Positions 37,050 to 42,549 of a stretch of 64,000 bases of DNA are shown here, in pieces. The position numbers and the translations under genes are program-made. This stretch comes from Branchiibius hedensis (GTDB lineage Bacteria > Actinomycetota > Actinomycetes > Actinomycetales > Dermatophilaceae), in the NCBI RefSeq assembly GCF_900108585.1, contig NZ_UESZ01000001.1, forward strand, positions 2,666,001 through 2,730,000. The letters are read 5' to 3'. The notes beneath the pieces are model-generated. The model worked only from the letters and a program-made list of their open reading frames with translations, was not told where the DNA came from and did not search any database. Every line of letters starts with the position of its first letter. The stretch's first letter is position 1.

Positions 37050-37865
37050 TCAGCCGATCGCGGCAGTCACGGCTCGCAGCTGGCCGAGCACGATCACGTC
37101 AATCTGGCCCGGGTGCAGGCGGAGCTCGAGGTTCTCCACCCCGGCCCAGGTGTCCAGATCGGCGTACCCGAGCGCCGAGAGCCGGGTCGCGACTTCGTCG
37201 GCCAACTCGCCGTCGAGCGGCAACAGGTCGGTTGACTCACCGAAGAGCAGGTCGTGCACCTGCAGCAGTCTGGCCAGTTCGGGGATCGGCGCCACGTGGT
37301 CGTCGACCCGCAGGTCGTAGATCACGTCGTCGCCGGGGGTATAACTGCCGGTCTTCGAGACCACGAGCAACGCCGCGGATTGCCGGCCGCGCGAATCGCC
37401 GCCGGCAACGTCACCGGCCTCAAGGGATCGCAACAGGCGTTGCACCAACGGGAGGTCCTCGGTGGCCAGCCACTCGTCGTACATCGCATCGACCACGTCG
37501 GGACCGGTGAGGATGTTGCCCTGGATGGCCACGTTCGGCCCGGTCCGGCCGCCGGCCCACGGCAGCGCCGAGGTGCCGGTGAAGGTGGCACTGCCGCCGC
37601 GGGAGTCGACCATGCCCGCCTGGCGGGTCTCGCGGCGGTCGTCAGCGGCGGTGAGGGCGGCGAGCGCGTCGGAGGCACTCAGCCCTTCGGCGAGGCGGGC
37701 CAGACCGTCGCGTTTGTAGAGGGTGTTGCACAAGGCCTGGGTGGCGACGGCGCCGATGCCGAAGCGGGCAGCGGGCACAGCCGCGCCGACGGCCAGGAAT
37801 TTGGACGCGACAGCGACCCCGAGATCACCGGTCGCCGCATCCCGCGCCACGATGGAGAACGTCAT
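37050..37865 (-). CDS. DUF1028-family protein
   Basis: 271 residues. The whole N-terminal 200 residues match DUF1028 (MTFSIVARDAATGDLGVAVASKFLAVGAAVPAARFGIGAVATQAL, GMVDSRGGSATFTG, AIQGNILTGPDVVDAM, DRGRQSAALLVV-like). The family has an Ntn-hydrolase-like fold and no settled function. A C-terminal extension of about 60 residues (LLFGESTDLLPLDGELADEVATRLSALGYADLD) resembles a putative peptidoglycan-binding tail. Its start lies 15 bases from the ECF promoter box that drives the divergent sigma gene. Confidence 0.87.
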   Translation of the reverse strand: MTFSIVARDAATGDLGVAVASKFLAVGAAVPAARFGIGAVATQALCNTLYKRDGLARLAEGLSASDALAALTAADDRRETRQAGMVDSRGGSATFTGTSALPWAGGRTGPNVAIQGNILTGPDVVDAMYDEWLATEDLPLVQRLLRSLEAGDVAGGDSRGRQSAALLVVSKTGSYTPGDDVIYDLRVDDHVAPIPELARLLQVHDLLFGESTDLLPLDGELADEVATRLSALGYADLDTWAGVENLELRLHPGQIDVIVLGQLRAVTAAIG

Positions 37866-37880
37866 GCCTCACTGTCACAC

Positions 37881-37916
37881 AACCTTTTCGGTGGCTATGA
37901 CGTAGGTACCGGTATG
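37881..37916 (+). promoter_or_regulatory. ECF-type promoter 1, AACCTTTT-N22-GGTATG
   Basis: -35-like AACCTTTT (37881-37888), CGT at 37901-37903 and GGTATGA at 37911-37917. The same three elements occur with identical spacing at 39517-39553 ahead of the second sigma gene, while the DNA between them differs. Confidence 0.7.
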
Positions 37917-37936
37917 AGTGGTCATAGGGAGCGGGA

Positions 37937-38431
37937 ATGAGCGGGCGCGACGACGCTGCGTTCACCGAGTTCGTCGCCGCCAGTTCGCCGTCGTTGTTGC
38001 ACACCGCCTGGCTGTTGTGCGGGGACGCACACCGGGCCGAGGACCTGGTGCAGGAGACCTACGTGCGGCTCTACCGCAAGTGGCGCTCGATGAACGGCCA
38101 GCCGTGGTCCTACGCGCGCAAGACGTTGGTCAACCTGAACACCGATCGGTGGCGTTCGACGAGGCTGGAGGTGGTCTCCGGCTCCCTTCCCGAGGCTGGT
38201 GCCGAGGGTGACGAGGCGCAGGTCGATGCCCGCCGCGCGCTGATCGACGCGCTGAGCACACTGCCCCGCCGCGAGCGCGACGTGGTGGTGCTGCGGCACT
38301 ACGCGGACCTGTCCGAGCTTCAGGTGGCCGACCTGCTCGGCATCGGAGTGGGGACGGTCAAGAGCGCCGGGTCCCGTGGATTGGCCCGGCTCCGAACGCA
38401 ACTCGACCCAGCATTGGAGGGACAGTCATGA
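37937..38431 (+). CDS. SigE-family ECF RNA polymerase sigma factor (module 1)
   Basis: 164 residues. Region 2 (FTEFVAASSPSLLHTAWLLCGDAHRAEDLVQETYVRLYRKW) and region 4 (ALSTLPRRERDVVVLRHYADLSELQVADLLGIGVGTVKSAGSRGLARLR) are typical of the actinobacterial SigE-family ECF group. ATG at 37937. The stop overlaps the start of the membrane-protein gene downstream (ATGA). Its paralogue is encoded 1.15 kb downstream. Confidence 0.93.
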   Translation: MSGRDDAAFTEFVAASSPSLLHTAWLLCGDAHRAEDLVQETYVRLYRKWRSMNGQPWSYARKTLVNLNTDRWRSTRLEVVSGSLPEAGAEGDEAQVDARRALIDALSTLPRRERDVVVLRHYADLSELQVADLLGIGVGTVKSAGSRGLARLRTQLDPALEGQS

Positions 38432-39513
38432 GCATCGACGTCGAAGAGCTGCTGCGGGAGACCTCCGCGCCGCCGATGAGCCTGTCCCCCGCGACGGTCC
38501 TGGGCGCCGCCAAGCAAGACGTGGTACGCCGACGCCGCCGGTTCGCGGGGCTGGCGACGGCTGGGGTCGCGGCGGCTGCCGCCGTCGCGATCACGGTGGG
38601 TGTGGTCGGCGGCGAACAGAGCGCACCCAGGCCGATGCCCGCGCAGACCAACACGCTGGATCTGAATGATCCGCAGAAAGCGGACTTCTTCGGGCCGAGC
38701 GCTGGCCTGCCGCTCGGTCAGATCGCCTCGAGCGCGATACCGATCGCGTCCGATCCATCCGGTGCTGCGCGGACGCCAATGACCAAGTACGTCGTGACCC
38801 GGCAGGACGGCGTACTGCGACTCAGTCGCCTCGACGGCAGCCGCCAAACCCTGCTGCCGCTGGCGGAAAAGTTGTCCGACGGCGGTTCGGTGACCACCGA
38901 TCGGAAACAAACGTTGATGGTGCATCCGTTGCCTGCCGACGTCAGGTCCGCGGCGCAGGTCATCTCGGCTCAGGCAATGGTCGAAGGTGGCGGGACGACC
39001 CTGTCGGATGGCAGCACAGTGGGCGTCTTCTGGACCAGCGATCCGGTCAACGTGTCCAACGTCGGACTGGCCTGGTGGCGCACTACCTCCGGCAGCCTGG
39101 GCTCGTCTACCGCTGAGACCGCGAAGACAGTGACGCTGACTGCTGGCGGAAAGAAGGCGACCTACTGGGAGTTCACCAAGAGTTCCTTCTGCGGGTTCGA
39201 TGATGAGACGGGAGCGTTCGCGACCCCAATGACGAACGAGCAGTGCCCGACGGATCTCTCTGGCTCGGAGGACCACGTCGGGTGGATGCAGACGGTTTAT
39301 GGGCCGATCAGCAACCTGCACAGCGTTACCGCGCCTGGTGTGACGGACCAGGCGATCGTGTCGGCGAGTATCCCCGGCACCTCGCGAGTGGTGCTGTGGG
39401 GTTCGGGGACTCTCGCCGCAGGCAGTGGCGCCGGATCGGACGCACCCTTCAGCAAGGTCACGTGGACCGGTCCCGACGGGAAGACTCACTCCTGGGATGC
39501 GCCGACTCCCTGA
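38428..39513 (+). CDS. ECF partner membrane protein, putative anti-sigma factor (module 1)
   Basis: 361 residues. A 40-residue cytoplasmic N-terminus (MSIDVEELLRETSAPPMSLSP, then VVRRRRRFAG), one TM helix (about 41-62), then a 300-residue external domain with two Cys (SSFCGF and NEQCP). No HxxxCxxC zinc anti-sigma motif is present. Translationally coupled to the sigma gene. It is homologous to the product of 40087-41166: both have KY/TY-V-DGVLR, DGGS, P-PAD, an AWW/SWW-T motif and a C-terminal PF..xWT/SPDGK. A role as anti-sigma factor or sensor is inferred. Confidence 0.75.
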   Translation: MSIDVEELLRETSAPPMSLSPATVLGAAKQDVVRRRRRFAGLATAGVAAAAAVAITVGVVGGEQSAPRPMPAQTNTLDLNDPQKADFFGPSAGLPLGQIASSAIPIASDPSGAARTPMTKYVVTRQDGVLRLSRLDGSRQTLLPLAEKLSDGGSVTTDRKQTLMVHPLPADVRSAAQVISAQAMVEGGGTTLSDGSTVGVFWTSDPVNVSNVGLAWWRTTSGSLGSSTAETAKTVTLTAGGKKATYWEFTKSSFCGFDDETGAFATPMTNEQCPTDLSGSEDHVGWMQTVYGPISNLHSVTAPGVTDQAIVSASIPGTSRVVLWGSGTLAAGSGAGSDAPFSKVTWTGPDGKTHSWDAPTP

Positions 39514-39516
39514 GTC

Positions 39517-39552
39517 AACCTTTTGCGCCTGCTGTGCGTCTGTTTCGGTATG
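39517..39552 (+). promoter_or_regulatory. ECF-type promoter 2, AACCTTTT-N22-GGTATG
   Basis: AACCTTTT at 39517-39524, CGT at 39537-39539 and GGTATGA at 39547-39553, same spacing as at 37881. It starts 4 bases after the stop of module 1, so module 2 has its own promoter. Confidence 0.7.
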
Positions 39553-39583
39553 ACCATGACAGCAGGACGGACATCGGGGCGAC

Positions 39584-40090
39584 GTGGACGCGGCTGAGCA
39601 GGCGCGGTTCGTCGAATTCGTCCAGGCCAGCAGCCCGCACCTGCTGAAGACCGCCTGGTTGCTGACCGGCGATCCGCACGTTGCTGAAGACCTCGTCCAG
39701 GAGGCGCTGGCCCGCGTCTACACCAAATGGGGCAGCGCCCAGAAGGCGCCGTGGGCCTACACCCGCAAGGTCATGCTCAACCTGCGCACGGACCGCTGGC
39801 GCCGGACCGGGGCCGAGATCGTGACTGCGGACGTTGCGGACTCACCCACCCGCGACGCGGGCGGCACAGTCGATGCCCGGGCCGACCTGGTGCGCGCCCT
39901 ACGGCAGCTGCCGCTGCGCGAGCGGCAGTGCGTCGTACTGCGCTACTACGCGGACCTGTCCGAAGAGGAGACCGCGAACGCACTCGGTGTCAGCCTCGGG
40001 ACCGTCAAGAGCTCGGCCTCCCGCGGCCTGGCCACGCTGCGCACCCTCGTCCATTCCGACACCACCTCTTCGAAGGGAGCGGCGTCATGA
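39584..40090 (+). CDS. SigE-family ECF RNA polymerase sigma factor (module 2)
   Basis: 168 residues, close paralogue of the protein at 37937 (FVEFVQASSPHLLKTAWLLTGDPHVAEDLVQEALARVYTKWG; ALRQLPLRERQCVVLRYYADLSEEETANALGVSLGTVKSSASRGLATLR). GTG start at 39584 with GGGG upstream. Overlaps the partner gene by four bases. Similarity in gene order, overlap and promoter shows that the two modules arose by tandem duplication. Confidence 0.93.
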   Translation: MDAAEQARFVEFVQASSPHLLKTAWLLTGDPHVAEDLVQEALARVYTKWGSAQKAPWAYTRKVMLNLRTDRWRRTGAEIVTADVADSPTRDAGGTVDARADLVRALRQLPLRERQCVVLRYYADLSEEETANALGVSLGTVKSSASRGLATLRTLVHSDTTSSKGAAS

Positions 40091-41166
40091 GCGTCGAACT
40101 CGAAGAACTCTTCCACGACCTGGACCCGGCCGCGCCGACCATGAGCGTGTCCGCGGACTCGGTGGTCGCCTCCGGCCAGCGCAAGGTACGCCGCCGCCGA
40201 GCCCTGTGGGGCGCCGGCACCGGGGCGCTCGCCGCGGCCGCCGCTGTCGCGATCGCAGTGGGTACGGCGCTGCCGGACTCCTCGTCCCCCTCACCGATGC
40301 CCGCGCACAGTTCGACGCCCCCACTCGGCCAGTTCTTCCAGCGCGACGGTGACGACGCCGGACTCCCCCGCGATGAGGTGACCTCGACGCCGATGGGCAA
40401 GGCCGACGGCAAACCGGCCACCCCGTCCACGACGTACCAGGTGTATCGCAAGGACGGCGTTCTGCGGATCCGCCGGATCGACAAGACAGGCTCGGTCGAC
40501 CTGCCCGAGGTTGCCCAGTACAAGGACGGCGGTTCGGCGACAAACGACCGGGACCAGACGGTCATCGTTCGCCCGGTGCCAGCGGACACCGACACCGCCG
40601 ATCTGTGGATCGATCCCCGGTCCGACTACTCCATGCTGGGCGGTGCCGGCGTTGTCCTTCCCGACGGCACACCTGCCGCCGTTTTCTGGACCGGCCAGCG
40701 CATCGACGCCGCGAAATACGTGGGATACGCCTCGTGGTGGACGACCGCTGGCACTCTGCATGCTTCGAACGGCGCCACCGCGACGCTGGTGCCACTCACC
40801 ACGACTGCCGGATCGGCTACCACCTTCTGGTCCTTCGAATCGTTGGGCACGTGCGGCGTCCGGGTGCTCACGAAGGGCGGTACGAACGGCGGAACCAACG
40901 ACGTCGCCGCCGACGGCGTGTGCGCGACCACCATCACCGGCGGAGCCCCGGCCCACCAGGTCGTCGCGATCCTCGCACCGGGGCCCGTGACCAAGGTGAC
41001 CACCACGGCAACGACCGGCGGCGCCGCGCCAGCGCTGCACACGACGCCGGTGGGCGACGGTCACGTGTTGATGTGGCTCGACACCACCGAGGTGGACCAC
41101 CTGCCGTTCCGGGAGATTTCCTGGACGTCGCCAGACGGTAAGCGGCTGACCTGGCCCCAACAATGA
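40087..41166 (+). CDS. ECF partner membrane protein, putative anti-sigma factor (module 2)
   Basis: 359 residues. Cytoplasmic N-terminus (MSVELEELFHDLDPAAPTMSVS, KVRRRRALWG), one TM helix about 40-62, external domain with Cys in LGTCGV and DGVCAT. Shares a colinear set of short motifs with the module 1 partner but is clearly diverged, more so than the sigma factors. No zinc anti-sigma motif. Coupled to the sigma gene by ATGA. Confidence 0.75.
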   Translation: MSVELEELFHDLDPAAPTMSVSADSVVASGQRKVRRRRALWGAGTGALAAAAAVAIAVGTALPDSSSPSPMPAHSSTPPLGQFFQRDGDDAGLPRDEVTSTPMGKADGKPATPSTTYQVYRKDGVLRIRRIDKTGSVDLPEVAQYKDGGSATNDRDQTVIVRPVPADTDTADLWIDPRSDYSMLGGAGVVLPDGTPAAVFWTGQRIDAAKYVGYASWWTTAGTLHASNGATATLVPLTTTAGSATTFWSFESLGTCGVRVLTKGGTNGGTNDVAADGVCATTITGGAPAHQVVAILAPGPVTKVTTTATTGGAAPALHTTPVGDGHVLMWLDTTEVDHLPFREISWTSPDGKRLTWPQQ

Positions 41167-41220: not shown

Positions 41221-42549
41221 GTGACTGCTGAACTGACACCTGACTTCACCGAACAGCTGACCAAGAACTTCGACGCGGATCCGACCGCCCGGTTGCTGCA
41301 GAACGCCGTGGCCACGACCCCGATCGACAAGGTCGCGATCGACCGCCGCGTCGTCACGTCAATCGACCACTCGGTCTCCGAGCTGCTCGATGACTGGAGT
41401 GCCACCAATCAGGAGAAGAGCGGCCGCTGCTGGCTGTTCGCCGGCACCAACCTGCTGCGGGCCGGCGCCGCGAAGAAGCTCGACGTCAAGGACTTCGAGT
41501 TCTCGCAGAACTACCTGCTCTTCTGGGACAAGTTCGAGAAGGCCAACTTCTGGCTGGAGTCGATCATCGAGACGGCCGGCGACGACGTGGACGACCGCAC
41601 GGTGGCGCTGCTGTTGGACCGGTCGGCCGAGGACGGCGGCCAGTGGAACATGTTCACCGCCCTCGTCGAGAAGCACGGCTTGGTGCCGAAAACCGCCATG
41701 CCGGAGACGAATTCTTCGAGCAACACGCACCTGATGAACCGCGACCTGTCCGTCGTCCTGCGACAGGCGGCCCGTGATCTGCGGAAGCGGGCAGCGGACG
41801 GAGCGTCCGGCGAGGAGCTCGGCCAGGCCAAGGCCGACGTACTGACAACGGTCCACCGGCTGCTATCCCTGCACCTGGGCACTCCCCCGGACTCCTTTGT
41901 GTGGCAGTGGAAGGACAAGGATTCCGGCTTCCACCGCAAGGGCACGATGACTCCGCAGGAGTTCGCCGCCGAATACGTCACGATCCCGCTCGAGGATTAC
42001 GTGTGCGTCGTCAACGACCCGCGCCACCCGTACGGCCAGACCTTCACCGTCGCGCACCTGGGCAACGTGGTGGGCGCGCGCCCGGTCACCTACCTCAACA
42101 TCGAGGTGGATCTGATGAAGAAGCTTGCTGTTGAAGCGATCTCGGGCGGTGAGCCGGTGTGGTTCGGTTGCGACACCTCGCAAATGTGCGACGCCAACCT
42201 CGGCATCTGGGACGCCAAACTCTTCGACTACGACGCGATCTACAACGTGACGTCCGATCTGAGCAAGGCGGACCGCCTGTTGCACCACGAGTCGTTGATG
42301 ACCCACGCGATGCTCTTCACCGGCGTCGACCTGCTGGACAACGCGCCGCGCCGTTGGCGCGTCGAGAACAGCTGGGGTTCGGAGAAGGGCGACAAGGGCT
42401 TCATGACCATGAACGACAACTGGTTCGGCGAGTACGTGTTCGAAATCGCCGTACGCCGCGACGCCCTCCCCGCCGACCTCCAGGCCGCGCTCGAGCAGGA
42501 GCCGACCGTGCTGCCTGCGTGGGACCCGATGGGCGCCCTTGCCCGCTGA
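41221..42549 (+). CDS. pepC: aminopeptidase C / bleomycin hydrolase (C1B cysteine peptidase)
   Basis: 442 residues, cytosolic papain-like aminopeptidase that forms hexamers in this family. Catalytic Cys70 (NQEKSGRCWLFAG), His362 (MTHAMLFTGV) and Asn383 (VENSWG). Other family blocks: FEFSQNYLLFWDKFEKANFWLE, DGGQWNMF, YVCVVNDPRHPYG, FGCDTSQM. Length is normal. The next gene overlaps its 3' end by 11 bases. Confidence 0.94.
   Translation: MTAELTPDFTEQLTKNFDADPTARLLQNAVATTPIDKVAIDRRVVTSIDHSVSELLDDWSATNQEKSGRCWLFAGTNLLRAGAAKKLDVKDFEFSQNYLLFWDKFEKANFWLESIIETAGDDVDDRTVALLLDRSAEDGGQWNMFTALVEKHGLVPKTAMPETNSSSNTHLMNRDLSVVLRQAARDLRKRAADGASGEELGQAKADVLTTVHRLLSLHLGTPPDSFVWQWKDKDSGFHRKGTMTPQEFAAEYVTIPLEDYVCVVNDPRHPYGQTFTVAHLGNVVGARPVTYLNIEVDLMKKLAVEAISGGEPVWFGCDTSQMCDANLGIWDAKLFDYDAIYNVTSDLSKADRLLHHESLMTHAMLFTGVDLLDNAPRRWRVENSWGSEKGDKGFMTMNDNWFGEYVFEIAVRRDALPADLQAALEQEPTVLPAWDPMGALAR

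Follow-up and report, generated by a model that had tools for sequence, protein, structure and literature searches.

Why should two neighboring genes for extracytoplasmic function (ECF) sigma factors carry promoter boxes that are identical letter for letter when the bases within and around those boxes differ? This question is raised by a 64,000-nucleotide stretch of the Branchiibius hedensis genome (NZ_UESZ01000001.1, positions 2,666,001 to 2,730,000, hereafter called the window), in which two complete modules lie in tandem on the + strand. Each runs from a promoter through a SigE-family ECF sigma gene and an ATGA overlap to a gene for a partner protein with one transmembrane (TM) segment. We consider it likely that these modules are two paralogous, self-controlled sigma/anti-sigma switches that arose by an old tandem duplication and probably act on each other, and that the shared motif GGTATGA is the start of the message and supplies it with an AUG. 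This reading draws on gene order, on homology, on a promoter and partner architecture common to relatives, and on the position of the AUG relative to the sigma start codons of those relatives.

Two tandem modules in the window

Module 1 opens with AACCTTTT as its predicted −35 element, followed after 12 bases by CGT as the −10 element (37881..37903, +), which together give the arrangement AAC-N17-CGT (N, any base) that is also present upstream of the sigma genes of relatives. GGTATGA lies at 37911..37917 (+) and is the probable transcription start region, with ATG 37914-37916 as the candidate 5′-terminal AUG. Sigma 1 (164 residues, 37937..38431, +) is followed by partner 1 (361 residues, 38428..39513, +), a probable single-pass anti-sigma factor with approximately 38 predicted cytoplasmic residues, an RRRRR cluster, and a TM segment at approximately residues 42-60. 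Module 2 begins 3 nucleotides past the partner 1 stop codon with the same AACCTTTT-N12-CGT arrangement (39517..39539, +) and continues with GGTATGA (39547..39553, +; ATG 39550-39552), which again is the probable transcription start region, then sigma 2 (168 residues, GTG start, 39584..40090, +) and partner 2 (359 residues, 40087..41166, +), also a probable single-pass anti-sigma factor and a paralogue of partner 1. In both modules, an ATGA overlap joins the sigma stop codon to the partner start codon.

Both sigma factors belong to the SigE family as modeled by TIGR02983, with scores of 172.6 bits for sigma 1 and 173.1 bits for sigma 2 against a curated cut-off of 141.55, and they are the only two of the 10 matches in this genome that exceed it. 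The preliminary description of this DNA had reported two complete tandem modules, and the gene order, sigma model scores, and ATGA overlaps bear this out. The sigma factors share 52% identity and fall within one 11-member clade (support 96). The same description held that the partners have only short motifs in common. This proved to be wrong: they align over their full length with 41% identity in a pairwise comparison, 38% in a search (E = 2.3e-47), and 37% in an eight-member alignment, and the named motifs are present within this general similarity. In one alignment, the two partners share 37% identity, whereas partner 1 reaches at most 26% with six other relatives, which suggests that each is the nearest relative of the other.

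The full boxes, AACCTTTT-N12-CGT-N7-GGTATGA, occupy positions 37881-37917 and 39517-39553 and agree at 18 of 18 letters, whereas only 1 of 12 and 3 of 7 letters match in the two spacers, and 15 of 60 in the upstream flank. Thus, the identical spacing with differing interior bases that had been described is confirmed, as is the proposal that selection rather than recent copying maintains the boxes. Taken together with the diverged proteins, these values argue for old paralogues whose promoter has been selectively kept. A recent copy was considered and rejected, given sigma factors that are only 52% identical and spacers that are unlike.

A genome-wide search for the box, as proposed in the preliminary description, recovered the exact pattern only at the two modules (two occurrences in 4,008,675 bases, compared with none for a reversed-pattern control). 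Allowing up to three mismatches added a single site, which is located inside a gene. The looser pattern AACCTT-N14-CGT occurs 16 times compared with 19 for its reversed control and therefore shows no excess; a crude coding test places 12 of the 16 sites within genes, two are the module promoters, and the remaining two (L079 and L080) have no clear target gene. Beyond the two modules, no site in this genome is a credible target of the strict box, although looser targets may exist.

The modules are flanked upstream by a divergent gene for a DUF1028 protein with a peptidoglycan-binding-like C terminus (37050-37865, −) and downstream by a gene for a Peptidase C1-like protein (PF03051, E = 1e-160; 41221-42549, +).

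A promoter and partner architecture common to relatives

Because the genus is represented by one genome, searches were extended to the family (186 genomes) and to 297 genomes sampled from the order. An alignment of both partners has matches in 49 of the 186 family genomes. Four relatives match beyond column 250 of its 387 columns, and nearly all other listed matches span only the first 60-120 columns or so, comprising the short cytoplasmic segment, the arginine cluster, and the TM segment. A model of this N-terminal part matches in 130 of the 297 order genomes, and a SigE-type sigma gene lies directly upstream in 133 of the 144 loci that were fetched through a partner match. From 285 loci, 29 of which were unused (L001-L004, L006-L013, L015, and the pattern sites L075-L090), we extracted 243 sigma modules after leaving out sigma matches that scored below 50 bits, were cut by the end of the locus, began within 130 nucleotides of that end, or were duplicates. 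The partner domain is matched in 220 of these modules, with a score above 15 in 206. Among the 110 modules fetched by their sigma gene alone, 78 carry the partner domain at a score above 15 and 20 have no match; hence, the link between sigma factor and partner is not an artifact of the partner-based search.

The 206 partners of relatives have a predicted cytoplasmic part with a median of 41 residues (5-95% range, 36-49), none of the 206 carries the zinc motif, and the ATGA overlap is present in 139 of the 206 modules; these proteins were chosen with a model that itself includes the arginine cluster. Related sigma factors among the best 79 loci of a larger list come from genera that include Metallococcus, Ornithinimicrobium, Serinicoccus, Knoellia, and Phycicoccus, and also from Nocardioides, Actinoplanes, Micromonospora, and Streptomyces.

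In both window modules, AAC and CGT precede the sigma gene at ECF spacing, which supports an ECF-type promoter as originally described. For each of the 243 modules, we scanned the 130 bases ahead of the sigma gene for AACC followed by CGT. The N17 spacing of AAC and CGT is present in 112 modules and N18 in 53, giving 164 modules in total because one has both, and each of the other spacings (13-16 and 19-21) is found in only two to seven. For an earlier subset of 145 modules, N17 was present in 80, compared with an average of 0.6 in shuffled upstream regions. The shared architecture of the window modules is thus the signature of a promoter class and is not peculiar to the pair, as had been supposed. 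Tandem sets recur as well: in no fewer than 13 genomes, this one among them, a single strand carries at least two partner-domain matches within approximately 3.2 kb. Larger arrays also exist, since one genome carries four partner domains within approximately 5 kb on one strand (L093, L122, L126, and L143; G076:C1, approximately 1563283-1568492).

GGTATGA as a candidate message start

What, then, is the role of GGTATGA, the third part of the box? The preliminary description did not consider that it might be a transcript start bearing an AUG. Within this family, we find it best read as a transcript start with a 5′-terminal AUG rather than as a protein-binding box, on the grounds that the sigma start codons of some relatives stand at this very place and that comparable sites in relatives lie at the start of other genes. 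Slightly short of an even chance must be given to the alternative that GGTATGA reflects a mere initiator preference of this sigma group and that no translation begins at its AUG. We define the offset as the number of bases between CGT and a codon; sigma start codons were chosen by homology, such that the frame is unaffected but the distance may change. Among the 164 modules with N17 or N18 promoters, the sigma start lies at offset 9-10 in nine, at offset 15 in one, and otherwise at 18 or more, with none of the 164 at offsets 1-8 or 11-14. Starts at offset 9-10 persist when the modules are thinned, in 7 of 99 and in 4 of 55, and recur in 3 of 24 modules of a further set drawn from named genomes. 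In one such relative, L200, the box reads GGGTATGACATTC, and the sigma gene begins at that ATG. Codon counts at offsets 7-10 speak to both readings. ATG is found 45 times compared with 11.2 expected from other offsets, and GTG is just as enriched (63 compared with 14.8), as a plain initiator preference would have it; TTG and CTG show no enrichment at these offsets.

A second line of evidence that argues against mere initiation comes from the pattern AACCT-N15-CGT-N6-GGNATG, which has 29 sites in 26 of the 186 family genomes and one in the reversed control. This pattern demands offset 9 and so misses the window boxes, in which the ATG comes at offset 10. Fourteen of the 29 sites precede or start SigE-family sigma genes, six lie in coding sequence by the crude test, four have no clear gene, and five open non-sigma frames of 204-310 codons at that exact ATG. 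The products of these five are a transglycosylase/G5 protein, a peptidase M48, a DUF4232 protein, and two proteins without a Pfam match. Overall, nine of the 29 sites lie outside coding sequence and open frames of 175-310 codons from the ATG (four sigma, five other). In 394 genomes of the class, a slightly stricter pattern that places the ATG at offset 9 has only four sites.

Two of the family sites deserve separate mention. In L368 (1533-2390) and L366 (1533-2405), from two genomes, the ATG of the pattern starts the genes for the peptidase M48 and the G5/transglycosylase protein; these may be envelope genes that this sigma class controls through leaderless transcripts. In two genomes (L373 and L376), a box of this kind is followed by similar short sequence, CGGCCTATCCTAGA, and no SigE-family sigma gene begins within 170 nucleotides.

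Where the sigma gene begins farther downstream, the AUG would open a short open reading frame (ORF). In module 1, the candidate leaderless ORF has eight codons (MSGHRERE, 37914..37940, +), and its TGA overlaps the sigma 1 start codon within ATGA, which fits a coupled leaderless ORF by sequence. Module 2 lacks this tight coupling, as an initiator-only role for GGTATGA would allow: its candidate 15-codon ORF (MTMTAGRTSGRRGRG, 39550..39597, +) instead overlaps the start of sigma 2 by 14 nucleotides. Among 37 leadered modules with such an ATG, 20 have an ORF whose stop codon falls within the ATGA or GTGA at which sigma begins. Because frame 2 makes this stop easy to reach, the frame rather than the stop serves as the test. 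The 37 ATGs are biased, with 24 in frame 2, 11 in frame 0 (in frame with sigma), and two in frame 1, which counts against an initiator alone. After the sigma factors were thinned to 75% identity, the counts for frames 2, 0, and 1 are 15, 6, and 1 of 22, and at 60% they are 9, 4, and 1 of 14. Random draws of leader lengths give p = 0.0001 for frame 2 without thinning, 0.0008 at 75%, and 0.013 at 60%. Two results count against coupling and for initiation alone. GTG at the same place has no frame bias (20, 15, and 17 of 52 in frames 0, 1, and 2), and all three leadered ATGs of the further set, each from Nocardioides, are in frame 1. When all ATG frames are pooled (37, the three of the further set, and seven new ones from the pattern sites, 47 in total), 25 are in frame 2, 15 in frame 0, and seven in frame 1 (p = 0.0039 for frame 2 and 0.0038 for frame 1, uncorrected for relatedness). 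We therefore regard coupling between the ORF and sigma as plausible within the family, where the frame bias supports it, and without support in the small set from outside.

The proposed circuit, its partner proteins, and known systems

How might the two modules operate? We propose a scheme, inferred in part from established ECF biology, in which the partner would sit in the membrane, its approximately 38 cytoplasmic residues would hold the cognate sigma factor, and its outer domain would sense an envelope signal. Such a signal would free the sigma factor, and RNA polymerase carrying it would start at the AAC-N17-CGT promoter of the module, yielding a message that begins at GGTATGA with the AUG at or next to its 5′ end. 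More sigma factor and more partner would be made, which would create a self-limiting loop, and each sigma factor would also switch on the other module.

The last step had been predicted from the shared promoters, and cross-recognition does appear likely: because the boxes are identical and region 4.2 is nearly identical (GTVKSAGSRG compared with GTVKSSASRG), each sigma factor probably reads both promoters. We take this segment to be the −35 recognition helix. Alternatively, the modules could be insulated, with each sigma factor serving its own promoter and specificity residing outside the 18-base box, in the spacer or discriminator, or in the partner. The nearly complete difference between the spacers would accommodate such insulation, as would partners that have diverged further (37-41% identity) than the sigma factors (52%). 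Nevertheless, the letters of the −35, −10, and start regions are the same in both modules and region 4.2 hardly differs, and we regard insulation as unlikely.

The partners provide the anti-sigma side of the proposed switches. Each has one TM-like segment, and the last basic residue before it is at position 38 in both, which sets the predicted cytoplasmic length. As previously described, the zinc motif HxxxCxxC is absent from both, and thus they do not qualify as zinc-binding class I proteins. They had also been suggested to represent an undescribed class. In Pfam and NCBIfam, neither partner reaches a curated cut-off (one sub-threshold NCBIfam anti-sigma match, to partner 1, has E = 0.0042 and 17.1 bits compared with a cut-off of 100), and five full-length relatives also have no Pfam match above cut-off. 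However, the N-terminal part is widespread, short non-zinc anti-sigma classes II and III are known, and the group may already be listed among ECF groups. An AlphaFold2 model of partner 1 built from eight sequences has a mean predicted local distance difference test (pLDDT) score of 61.4, with an all-beta extracytoplasmic part that is best at approximately residues 120-240 and N-terminal helices at residues 5-10 and 21-53 (pLDDT 41-66 across residues 1-50). It is improbable that the partner instead activates sigma in response to a signal, or is a membrane sensor that has nothing to do with sigma beyond being cotranscribed with it: although no known anti-sigma domain is matched at cut-off or found among solved structures, the constant position after sigma, the start-stop overlap, the single TM segment, and the short basic N terminus, seen in the 206 relatives selected with the arginine-cluster model, match the membrane anti-sigma classes described in PMC7406223 and PMC8103513.

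Several observations weigh against the reading of the modules as two coupled sigma/anti-sigma switches. For the pair as a pair, the genus offers one genome. Among 77 further modules from named genomes, the partner domain scores above 15 in 42 and has no match in 23, and only 24 carry the N17 or N18 promoter, which appears weaker at greater distance. The further set also has sigma starts at offsets 2 and 13, one each. A sequence search of the partners against solved anti-sigma factors gave no similarity at E values up to 10, and a Foldseek search of the partner 1 model against the PDB returned nothing at E ≤ 0.001. With VIA-align, many rows are of immunoglobulin or receptor type and fall under the trust level of the tool, such that the fold of the outer domain is not confident. 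In the literature searched, we found no published test of such a partner binding its sigma factor, although we do not claim that none is in print. No fold is assigned to the outer domain (Foldseek best E = 0.094; VIA-align best Z = 6.5).

On a wider scale, the modules may exemplify a large actinomycete ECF class, for which we found no tested member, in which a non-zinc membrane anti-sigma domain of approximately 40 residues is combined with a self-controlled message that opens with AUG, such that sigma translation either depends on leaderless initiation at a mini-ORF or is itself leaderless; we hold this generalization to be doubtful. Were it correct, both ribosome state and a membrane signal would set sigma output, and the two switches described here would form a closed mutual loop without other strict-box targets. 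The pair offers a testable rule for a common actinobacterial switch, consisting of the place of the promoter, a short inhibitor domain, and a message that possibly opens with the start codon. Such a rule would allow promoters to be predicted and these switches to be used as parts.

Among known systems, RpoE-RseA, SigW-RsiW, and SigK-RskA (class I) are alike in that the sigma factor is held by a membrane partner and an ECF-type promoter is used (PMC7406223). In the coevolution study of PMC7406223, the mean length of class I anti-sigma domains is 101 residues, and domains shorter than 50 residues were put aside as candidates for class II. The partners of the window and of relatives differ in having only approximately 38-41 cytoplasmic residues, no zinc motif, and no match above cut-off; with the last basic residue before the TM segment at position 38, their predicted topology leaves them short of the 50-residue cut used for class I in that study. 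Three anti-sigma classes are recognized, namely I, II (CnrY), and III (RsbN), and RsbN is a membrane-anchored anti-sigma factor from an actinomycete (PMC8103513). CnrH-CnrY and BldN-RsbN have short anti-sigma domains that are not of class I, as is proposed for the window modules. The length of the partners would fit class II, in which two helices wrap around the sigma factor, but the helices modeled at residues 5-10 and 21-53 have pLDDT values of 41-66. Neither CnrY nor the three-helix, membrane-anchored RsbN was among the partner sequence matches at E values up to 10.

Precedents also exist for the putative message start. In mycobacteria, a class of leaderless small ORFs begins at a 5′-terminal AUG of the transcript and is coupled to the following gene through an RTGA overlap, without conservation of the encoded peptides (PMC4633059), and the 5′-AUGs of leadered Escherichia coli mRNAs can affect the downstream gene (PMC4965119). 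The short ORF of module 1, which ends in ATGA, resembles the mycobacterial examples, and module 2 differs from them in its 14-nucleotide overlap. Unlike both precedents, the case made here is read from DNA alone and is located at ECF sigma promoters. The SigR/SigR′ system of Streptomyces likewise has an ECF promoter under its own control, and the transcript from it encodes a product with a different N terminus, but SigR′ is an in-frame extension of 55 residues (PMC4921905), whereas the upstream ORFs in the window are out of frame. By analogy with these systems, coupling between the upstream ORF and sigma would plausibly be of a known kind.

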